Source: Candidatus Acidiferrales bacterium
Lineage (GTDB): Bacteria; Acidobacteriota; Terriglobia; Acidiferrales; UBA7541
Direction: 5' to 3'
DNA length: 55,754 nucleotides
NCBI GenBank assembly: GCA_030037315.1
Contig: JASHRM010000074.1
Location: 1 to 55,754 of the forward strand
The notes beneath the pieces were generated by a model. It searched no databases. It was not told where the DNA came from and was given only the letters and a program-made list of their open reading frames with translations. Made by a program: the position numbers and the translations under genes. Each line of letters starts with the position of its first letter. Position 1 is the stretch's first letter. Below are positions 19,571 to 23,005 of the stretch, in pieces.

Positions 19571-20791
19571 CTAGTGGACGAGATCGGACGCGAAGACGAT
19601 GCCTATTCCACGGTCGGAAAGCCGCGGAACACCTTCGGCAAGAGCCGCGATTGTAGCCGGATGAGGGTGGCCGATGGCGATCGCGGAGCCATCTTTCAGG
19701 GCGTCATGGGCGGCGAGTTCGAGTTGCCGAAGGACCGCCTCGCGGGTGGGGACATCATCCAGGAAAACCTTCCGCGATGCAGCGTGCACGCCGGTTTGTT
19801 CTGCGATTTTGTAGGCTACAGTCGCTGCAGTGGTGCGGCTGTCGATGAAGAAAAGATTGCGCTGCCGGAGCAAGGGCATGAGTTCCTGCATGAGCTCCGG
19901 GTCACAGGTGGCAAGGGAACCTTGGTGATTATTGACCCCGACCGCGTGCGGCACTGTCTCAAGCATTTCGTTGACGGCAGCCGCTATCTGCCCTTTGGTC
20001 ATCCCAGGATGCAGCTCGAGAGGCTCTGGAATTGCGCCTTCAGCTCCGTCGCCTTCGGATAAGGCTTCCATGGGGAGATGAAGGATCACCTCGTCACCTC
20101 GGCGATTTGCCTCATTGGCGACTGCGGCCGAAAAAAGCAGATTGGGAAGAACCGAAATGGTGACCGGAAATGGAAGATCCAAAATCGAATCCGCCGAGGA
20201 TTGATCGTGGCCGAGATCGTCGAAGATTATCGCCAGATAGCCTTTGGCAGTCCCCGCCTGATGAGGGAGGCTCACGGCGGGGGCAGGTGAACTGCGCAAG
20301 TAAATGCTGTGCGTGATCGTTTTGCGGGATGCGAGATCGATGCGTGTTTCATCTCCTCCTTCATTCGCGCCTTCCGCGAAGGAAAGCTTATGGCGCCGGG
20401 CAATCGTGTTCAGAGTTTTCTCAAACTGTGCTTCCTCTGACGAATTTCGAAGCGTTATTTCAATCTCATCCGATTCCGATCCGCCCGGTCGCTGGATTCC
20501 CCGTTTGACTGTAACTTTGGCATTATGGTCTGTAATTCTTTGAGCCGAGGTAACGATTTCGTCGGTAATCTCATGAAGCTGAGATTGGCTCAAAGGCTTT
20601 TTTGCGCATCCCGCCAAGAACATCGACACAGCGAGAGACGAGATGAGGCTGATCGCAAAGCAGGGCTCAACAGAATGCGTAGTAATCCAGGATCGGCTGC
20701 GACATCCTGCAAGTAGAGCCTTTTTAAGCAGCTTTGCGCGCCGTTGCGGTTCCCTGCAGTATTTCCACGGCCTTTTTGACAACCGGATCAT
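19571..20791 (-). CDS. Divergent polysaccharide deacetylase family lipoprotein (YibQ-like); start uncertain
   Basis: The C-terminal 220 residues match the divergent polysaccharide deacetylase (YibQ) family: AIIFDDLGHD, VTISVLPN, EVILHLPME, GVNNHQGS, FFIDSRTT and AIAIGHPHPAT. Such proteins often lie beside murein hydrolase regulators or carboxy-terminal proteases, and their enzymatic activity is unproven. Before this a lipoprotein signal ending in the lipobox LAGC and a Ser/Gln-rich linker are seen. The start is a problem: the hydrophobic segment has no nearby in-frame ATG. The first is at 20791, inside the upstream S41 gene (68-bp overlap), giving a long basic N-terminus. A rare start codon or a sequencing frameshift are alternatives. 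Co-transcribed with the S41 gene. Confidence 0.75.
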   Translation of the reverse strand: MIRLSKRPWKYCREPQRRAKLLKKALLAGCRSRSWITTHSVEPCFAISLISSLAVSMFLAGCAKKPLSQSQLHEITDEIVTSAQRITDHNAKVTVKRGIQRPGGSESDEIEITLRNSSEEAQFEKTLNTIARRHKLSFAEGANEGGDETRIDLASRKTITHSIYLRSSPAPAVSLPHQAGTAKGYLAIIFDDLGHDQSSADSILDLPFPVTISVLPNLLFSAAVANEANRRGDEVILHLPMEALSEGDGAEGAIPEPLELHPGMTKGQIAAAVNEMLETVPHAVGVNNHQGSLATCDPELMQELMPLLRQRNLFFIDSRTTAATVAYKIAEQTGVHAASRKVFLDDVPTREAVLRQLELAAHDALKDGSAIAIGHPHPATIAALAEGVPRLSDRGIGIVFASDLVH

Positions 20792-21932
20792 CCGGTGAGC
20801 TTGAAGGAGCCGGCAGGGTTTGCTGGTCGATCTCAGCGACGTCATCCGGCAGAGGGCGGACGACCCGCGTCGGAGTCACGCCATCCACGGGGATCTCTTT
20901 GCCAGCAGGCGTGTAATAGTTTGCGAGAGTCAGGAAAAGCGCGGAACCATCGTCGAGTTCAATCAGCTTCTGCATCGAAGCAGTGCCATACGTGCGATCG
21001 CCCACCGTCTCGCCGCGATGGTTATCGGAGATTGCCGCTGCGACGATTTCAGCAGGGCCGGCGGTTCCGTTTCCAATCAGGATGGATACAGGCTGAGTCC
21101 ACACAACTTTCGAAGGATCAGCGGCCGAAACAACTGGACTGATGGTTTGGCCCTTGAGCGTGGCGATGTTGCCCGAGGAGAGGAACAATTGCGCGGTCGA
21201 AATTCCCTCTTGGTCGTCTCCCAGCGCGCAATCGCGCAGATCAAGAATTAATTTGTGGGCGCCCTGTTTATCGAACTGGACGAGTTCGTCGCGAATCTGC
21301 TTTGTCGTTCCGGCGTAGAATTCCGGAACGTGAAGATACGCGATATCGCCTTCGAGCCGGTCTTCGATAAGTTTCGGGGAAGGCAATCTTTCAAGGCTGA
21401 CTTCCATATCCTGCGGCTCGGTCTTGCCTCGACGAATCACTGAAAGCTTCACAACAGCGCCCGGATCGCCGCTCAACAGCAATTGAGCCTGCTCGATGGC
21501 CATCTGCCCGGTCGTAAACCCGGCGATCTTCTCCAGAACGTCACCCAGTTGAAGGCCGGCCTTGGCAGCAGGACTGTCAGGTAAAGCGGAAATAACGCTG
21601 ATATAACCAAATCGCTTTGTCAGGGCGAGTCCGGCATGGGCTTTGGCCGCAACGGCGCTTTTCTCTTTGTAATCGGAGTACTCGAGGGGACTCAAATAGC
21701 TCGATTCGGAATCGAGAGAATCAACCAAACCGTGAAGCGCGCCGTTGGTCACTTGATGCATGTTCGGTTCATCGACATAATCCTTCTGAATATGATCCAG
21801 AACCTCGCTGTACACAGTCAGAGCTCGAAAAGCCTTGTCATCTGACGAACGCGCGCGTACGTAGCCGGCTGTCACGTAGCCGAAAACGATGAGTGAAAGT
21901 ACGATGACTGTCTTGCGTATGAAGGGACTCAT
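20724..21932 (-). CDS. S41/CtpA-family protease homologue lacking the catalytic Ser-Lys pair
   Basis: A 402-residue carboxy-terminal-processing-protease homologue: N-terminal membrane anchor or signal (about 8-26), cap helices with the YVDEPNMHQVTNGALHGLVDSLD pattern, a PDZ domain (about 95-170) and an S41 core. In active enzymes a Ser in G-S-A-S-A-S-E and a Lys 25 residues later in G-K-G are essential. Here the block is GTAGPAE with Gly292 at the Ser position, and the second block is GTASMQ with Thr317 at the Lys position, exactly 25 apart. Gln321, which assists the dyad, is kept. The protein is predicted to be a non-proteolytic scaffold. A good SD (AAGGAAA) precedes the ATG. The YibQ-like gene follows and overlaps. 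Confidence 0.88.
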   Translation of the reverse strand: MSPFIRKTVIVLSLIVFGYVTAGYVRARSSDDKAFRALTVYSEVLDHIQKDYVDEPNMHQVTNGALHGLVDSLDSESSYLSPLEYSDYKEKSAVAAKAHAGLALTKRFGYISVISALPDSPAAKAGLQLGDVLEKIAGFTTGQMAIEQAQLLLSGDPGAVVKLSVIRRGKTEPQDMEVSLERLPSPKLIEDRLEGDIAYLHVPEFYAGTTKQIRDELVQFDKQGAHKLILDLRDCALGDDQEGISTAQLFLSSGNIATLKGQTISPVVSAADPSKVVWTQPVSILIGNGTAGPAEIVAAAISDNHRGETVGDRTYGTASMQKLIELDDGSALFLTLANYYTPAGKEIPVDGVTPTRVVRPLPDDVAEIDQQTLPAPSSSPDDPVVKKAVEILQGTATARKAA

Positions 21933-22084: not shown

Positions 22085-23005
22085 CTATTTGTGGGCGAGG
22101 CTCTGGCGGCGCGACGACATGTTCATGCCAAAGGTGCTCACTTCGCGCAACGGAGCTGCCGCCGTTATATAGGTTTGGGAAATGCGATCCTGCCACGTGA
22201 AACGGTCCTCATCCCACAAGGACCAGACGAAGCCCATCGCAAACGTCGCTCCTGAAAGGACGTACCCGAAACTGCGCCAAACGAGCTGGCGCGTATCTGG
22301 CAGACTGCCATCGAGCCGGACAATGGTAAGACCCATAAGCTGCATCCCGGGGGTGGCTCCCGCAAGAGTGACGAACAATGAAAAATACAGGGTGTAGAAA
22401 AGAAATATCGCGGTCAAATAGACGCCCGTATCGACTTTTTCGAAAACGAATGTCCCTCCCACGGACCTGCTGGTGAAGAGGAAGAGCGCGACGAATGCGG
22501 TACACGCGGCTGCCAAGCAAATCAGATCAATGAGGCCGGCCCAACGACGCTGTGCGAGGCTGGCGACGGGGACGAGCGCAGTCTGAGGACGTCCGCGATC
22601 GACCGAAGCGCTGGAGAAGTCCAGCTCGGGTTGCGCGGAAATTTCGACTCGCTCATTTTGCTTGCCGCGAAGAATTGATCGCGAGCGAGGCGCGTCTGGC
22701 AAAGTTTGCGGCGGGTCATCGACTCGGTCCGCAGGCCGGAAAGGAAGCGCCGGTTGATCCTCGCGCATGTCGACCGGATGTGGACGGGGACGGCCGCGCT
22801 TCGCGCAGTACTCATCCAAGCGCCGCGCCACTTCGAGGCGCCATTCAGGGATGGGTTCGCCTACTGTTTTGGCGCGGGCAGCAAGTGAATCAGATTGCTC
22901 GCGCTCGGAAGCCTGAGACTTCTCGGGGCTGGATAAATTGCAGAAGGAACAATTTTCGCTATCGTCAAGCAGAAGGGCGCCACACCCCGAGCAGATACGT
23001 ATCAC
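22085..23005 (-). CDS. RDD-family membrane protein with N-terminal zinc ribbon
   Basis: 306 residues. A zinc-ribbon (C-S-G-C then C-S-F-C, residues about 5-22) is followed by a long charged linker (about 30-155) and an RDD membrane domain: R-W-A-G-L-I-D-L at about 156 gives the family's first Arg and Asp, then three or four TM helices, with GATPGMQLMGLTIV and the late WDEDRFTWQDRISQT segment typical of RDD proteins. The function is unknown; some RDD proteins are proposed ion or small-molecule transporters. The start is a GTG without a strong SD. It is divergent from lptD (211 bp between). Confidence 0.82.
   Translation of the reverse strand: MIRICSGCGALLLDDSENCSFCNLSSPEKSQASEREQSDSLAARAKTVGEPIPEWRLEVARRLDEYCAKRGRPRPHPVDMREDQPALPFRPADRVDDPPQTLPDAPRSRSILRGKQNERVEISAQPELDFSSASVDRGRPQTALVPVASLAQRRWAGLIDLICLAAACTAFVALFLFTSRSVGGTFVFEKVDTGVYLTAIFLFYTLYFSLFVTLAGATPGMQLMGLTIVRLDGSLPDTRQLVWRSFGYVLSGATFAMGFVWSLWDEDRFTWQDRISQTYITAAAPLREVSTFGMNMSSRRQSLAHK

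Follow-up and report, generated by a model that had tools for sequence, protein, structure and literature searches.

What becomes of a membrane-anchored protease when the residues with which it should cut are gone? The question is raised by the reading frame at 20724..21932 (minus strand) of the window, the whole 55,754-nucleotide stretch of acidobacterial DNA analysed here. Its product of 402 residues (P0001) was characterized by the reading frame itself, Pfam, alignment to solved CtpAs, an AlphaFold2 model and Foldseek, and is described here as a degenerate CtpA-type S41 pseudoprotease, for short a dead S41. Pfam detects a Peptidase_S41 domain (E 4e-35) at residues 196-357 (20862..21347, minus strand) and a PDZ domain (PDZ_6 and PDZ_2) at about residues 101-172 (21417..21632, minus strand). 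A hydrophobic N-terminal helix at residues 3-26 (21855..21926, minus strand), modelled as helix H3-31, is a predicted membrane anchor. The AlphaFold2 model, for which 47 orthologues served as input, has a mean pLDDT of 87.3, and its best PDB matches in Foldseek are the CtpAs of H. pylori and P. aeruginosa. The domains and the predicted fold bear out the intact PDZ and S41 folds claimed by the first-pass annotation and indicate that the protein belongs to peptidase family S41/CtpA by descent. Its score against the NCBIfam prc subfamily TIGR00225 is 181.2 bits, below the curated cut-off of 218.6. Upstream on the same strand, at 22085-23005 (minus), lies the gene of a membrane protein of the RDD family, whose N-terminus bears a zinc-ribbon-like CxxC/CxxC motif. 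A scan for promoters and terminators gave no signal exceeding chance.

Based on the alignment to solved CtpAs, the Ser-Lys dyad is absent. Gly292 (codon GGC, 21057..21059, minus strand) aligns to the serine that differs between PDB entries 7rqh and 7rpq, named S302 of P. aeruginosa CtpA (PMC6050968), and Thr317 (codon ACT, 20982..20984, minus strand) aligns to the catalytic lysine. The assisting Gln is kept as Gln321 (20970..20972, minus strand). The spacing of positions 292, 317 and 321, 25 plus 4 residues, is the same as that of S300/K325/Q329 in H. pylori CtpA (entry title). Alignment and codons thus agree with the earlier reading of Gly for Ser, Thr for Lys and a retained Gln at the 25-residue Ser-Lys distance. 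That reading held for both dyad residues and fell short on the extent of the loss, as it named only these two. When the operon-type clade was compared with 23 dyad-intact proteins, further losses emerged at position 76 (a conserved His within 'DPHS'), at Val320, and at Asn235 and Gly237, which in the 'NxGG' loop close to the oxyanion hole are the Asn and the first Gly. The window protein reads C-A-L-G at this motif, and in the dyad-lacking proteins of the survey described below the Asn is present in 4% and the first Gly in 32%. What the clade retains is the fold core, Glu295, Gly311, Gly316 and mostly Gln321 (Gln in 92% of the dyad-lacking proteins).

The conservation pattern bears on whether the old pocket has found a new use. 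Gly292 (95%) and Thr290 (98%) are highly conserved although the Lys position varies freely, and IRBP modules, which resemble CtpAs (PMC2000878), give a precedent for a new catalytic or ligand-binding role at this site. An alternative chemistry is possible as far as the residues tell. Free variation at the Lys position and the lack of a newly invariant residue set typical of catalysis nevertheless make such a role improbable, and we rank it below every other functional alternative considered here.

The PDZ domain has also changed. The first Gly of its carboxylate loop, position 99, is lost in many proteins and is His99 in the window protein; over 180 aligned sequences this position is Gly in 49 and acidic in 78. 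The altered loop argues against simple C-terminal peptide capture and weakens the peptide-binding part of the first-pass proposal. It also bears on a decoy role, in which the protein would bind the C-terminal tails of wall hydrolases or of the SddA deacetylase and block their cleavage. The retained PDZ and S41 cleft architecture would suit a decoy, and data suggest that SddA is a substrate of Prc in E. coli (PMC12569750). With both the carboxylate loop and the oxyanion region degraded in many proteins, however, tail capture is doubtful and we consider a decoy unlikely.

Is the loss peculiar to this genome? A profile search of 119 Acidobacteriota genomes, together with sequence checks of fetched loci, gave 159 non-redundant S41 sequences, including 19 long paralogues and two CtpAs from the PDB. 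The scope of the dyad survey is acidobacterial loci, the only ones that the contig scan returned; outside the phylum the S. meliloti operon was read. An intact dyad is missing in 136 of the 159, and Gly occupies the Ser position in 129 of these 136, so that the conservation of Gly in relatives is upheld. The 23 intact sequences are the 19 long CtpA paralogues (497-717 aa), two operon-type proteins of family f34 and the two PDB references. All orthologues read in the genus and family of the window carry Gly at 292. Lys is absent from position 317 in all of them, and Thr317 is not conserved: the residue there is Thr, Ile, Ser, Ala, Leu, Met or Asn. Other Terriglobia and the Blastocatellia/Pyrinomonadaceae show the same dyad loss with one exception (L049), in which Ser is kept and Ile stands at the Lys position.

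Unsaturated pairs of the same genus gave dN/dS of 0.03-0.17, which indicates purifying selection and therefore that the loss in the window is not a local mutation. The genome assembly is fragmented (339 contigs, 83% complete), which could favour a sequencing error, a local mutation or a decaying pseudogene. These explanations are refuted for practical purposes by a loss common to orthologues across the phylum, by stop-free frames and by dN/dS well below 1. The phylum-wide conserved loss, purifying selection and the intact predicted fold strongly support the view, already put forward in the first-pass annotation, that the protein is non-proteolytic.

Then, in what setting is such a protein kept? 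To avoid selection on S41 itself, EnvC was taken as the anchor, blind to the state of S41, and 70 acidobacterial EnvC loci were read. An S41 gene adjoins EnvC in 47 of them, and the catalytic positions could be read in 46: two proteins have Ser and Lys, three Ser only, two Lys only and 39 neither. Ser, Lys or both are therefore missing in 44 of the 46, and f34, which contributes both intact proteins, is the only family keeping the pair. The f34 loci L126 and L163, with envC upstream and yibQ downstream, hold the sole operon-type S41s read in the phylum with Ser and Lys and provide a natural active control. Outside the window's class, many families have the dead S41 gene directly behind an EnvC-like gene with an M23 domain, often ahead of yibQ. 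The full order envC-S41-yibQ is present in several families of the phylum; the window retains S41-yibQ alone. Full-length EnvC was not detected in the window's class, and a search of the window's own genome found M23-domain matches only. The order envC-ctpA-sddA is the same in the S. meliloti operon (plasmid records), where S41 is intact, and P. aeruginosa has envC-ctpA-PA5135, PA5135 being the yibQ/sddA orthologue (PMC12569750). Two other arrangements were seen. In family f36 (L215, L217 and L218) envC adjoins yibQ with no S41 between them, like E. coli, and at L240 (f60) and L241 (f16) the S41 between envC and yibQ is very degenerate, scoring 115 and 88 bits against the S41 profile. This supports the envelope-enzyme context proposed earlier and makes it more precise: the partner gene belongs to the SddA/YibQ type, and S41 also stands behind envC in many families of other classes.

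The neighbour in the window is a divergent polysaccharide deacetylase of the YibQ/SddA type (19571..20845, minus strand; PF04748, E 2e-70, domain at 19577-20230), whose reading frame overlaps the end of the S41 gene. Its start codon is ambiguous, as the frame stays open far inside the S41 gene; in several relatives the YibQ frame opens immediately after the S41 stop. An LAGC lipobox with its Cys codon at 20606-20608 fits the earlier call of a YibQ-like deacetylase lipoprotein next door. YibQ is a predicted lipoprotein in the window's lineage, and no lipobox was found in several deep families. The DD, HxP and NNH motifs (metal and catalytic) are intact in the window YibQ and correspond by motif to D31/D32, H78 and H123, the residues mutated in E. 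coli SddA. SddA removes acetyl groups from denuded glycan strands; it is expressed together with envC and has a modulating effect on the activation of amidases (PMC12440217).

The pairing of S41 with YibQ is frequent without being universal. Among the first 102 loci, 53 have YibQ abutting or overlapping S41; they include almost the whole genus of the window and the greater part of its family. In Terriglobia relatives that have YibQ it is always sited at the S41 locus. Many genomes (Blastocatellia and several Terriglobia) keep a dead S41 and have no YibQ, so the supposition that the two are always paired is false, and a strict dependence of the dead S41 on YibQ was rejected. No single partner is obligatory, since lineages without YibQ or without EnvC keep the dead S41. 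Some YibQ-less loci have other neighbours: in Blastocatellia L074 and L081 the dead S41 is divergent beside ruvX-like and mltG (YceG) genes, and in one Terriglobia genome a PBP1-type transglycosylase/transpeptidase gene directly follows the dead S41 (L046:4023-6071).

In the tree, the operon-type proteins form one clade, separate from the long CtpAs and the PDB CtpAs (100/100). The intact f34 pair is nested among sequences missing one or both dyad residues, and the deep forks are poorly resolved. A single loss, with all dyad-less sequences as one clade, was rejected by the AU test (p 1.6e-5). This rejection, together with the nesting of f34, suggests at least two losses of the dyad, or one loss followed by a regain in f34.

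The same tree speaks to a role as a regulatory subunit of the intact CtpA paralogue, with which the dead protein would co-assemble or compete and so tune the choice of substrate. Pseudoproteases often tune their active relatives. The phylum contains long CtpAs (497-717 aa) with an intact dyad, and the genome of the window has one of them (L001); the dead protein retains its N-terminal and core regions, and the CtpA structures of H. pylori and P. aeruginosa are multi-chain. A long, fully supported branch nevertheless divides the two clades, and the active paralogue is unlinked to the dead gene, whereas EnvC and SddA are linked to it. We regard this role as rather unlikely, though as the strongest of the alternatives.

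Taken together, both catalytic residues are gone, a loss that, as judged by sequence, almost all operon-type S41s read in the phylum have in common, while the anchor, the PDZ domain and the S41 fold are kept under purifying selection, next to EnvC/SddA genes and an SddA with intact active-site motifs. In the explanation that we favour, at a probability of roughly 0.6, the window gene is ctpA in the cell-division operon envC-ctpA-sddA(yibQ), its product made a pseudoprotease across the Acidobacteriota and acting as a docking or oligomerising subunit of septal peptidoglycan factors. The membrane-anchored protein would no longer cleave; it would dock or oligomerise with periplasmic septal peptidoglycan factors, with EnvC in lineages that have it and, in that of the window, mainly with the YibQ/SddA deacetylase. 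It may thereby position or limit the action of SddA on denuded glycan strands left by amidases, and proteolysis would fall to the separate intact CtpA paralogue of the same genome (C204). Regulation of YibQ in particular is an inference. The role is probably not bound to YibQ alone, because different lineages have lost partners and still keep the dead CtpA. The broader proposition, that the whole phylum converted the protease of the EnvC-CtpA-SddA operon to a dedicated structural or regulatory subunit and that the dyad was lost repeatedly, is offered tentatively, and we hold it at somewhat less than even odds.

CtpA/Prc proteases are usually studied as degraders of peptidoglycan hydrolases. 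A conserved dead copy in the operon implies a non-proteolytic role of CtpA in the EnvC/SddA module, a role that may exist unnoticed in active enzymes too. If the whole phylum did make this conversion, these proteins would be a natural model of a wall-hydrolase-controlling protease that works without proteolysis. A large number of acidobacterial proteins carry a misleading label when they are annotated as 'S41 family peptidase'. A search of the open-access literature, which cannot prove absence, found no description of such a pseudoprotease.

Several known systems share parts of this picture. IRBP (RBP3) modules are kin of C-terminal processing proteases with a binding instead of a proteolytic role; IRBP, however, is a eukaryotic retinoid carrier of the CtpA/crotonase superfamily, and no such ligand is suggested for the window protein. 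EnvC, adjacent in many acidobacteria, is likewise a relative of wall enzymes, a degenerate LytM amidase activator that kept the fold, lost catalysis and became a regulator. It differs in its M23 fold and in its well-studied mechanism via FtsEX and amidases, and the search of the window's class did not detect it. E. coli Prc/Tsp and B. subtilis CtpB have the PDZ-S41 architecture and the 25-residue Ser-Lys spacing of the window protein; unlike it they are active, and Prc is much larger and lies outside this operon. P. aeruginosa CtpA (PA5134), with LbcA, is a protease that degrades peptidoglycan endopeptidases and requires S302 for the degradation of MepM (PMC6050968), whereas the window protein is without the Ser, the Lys and the oxyanion-region motif. 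It shares the fold and is the best PDB sequence match to the window protein, and its operon site, between envC and the sddA/yibQ orthologue, is also found in several acidobacterial families.
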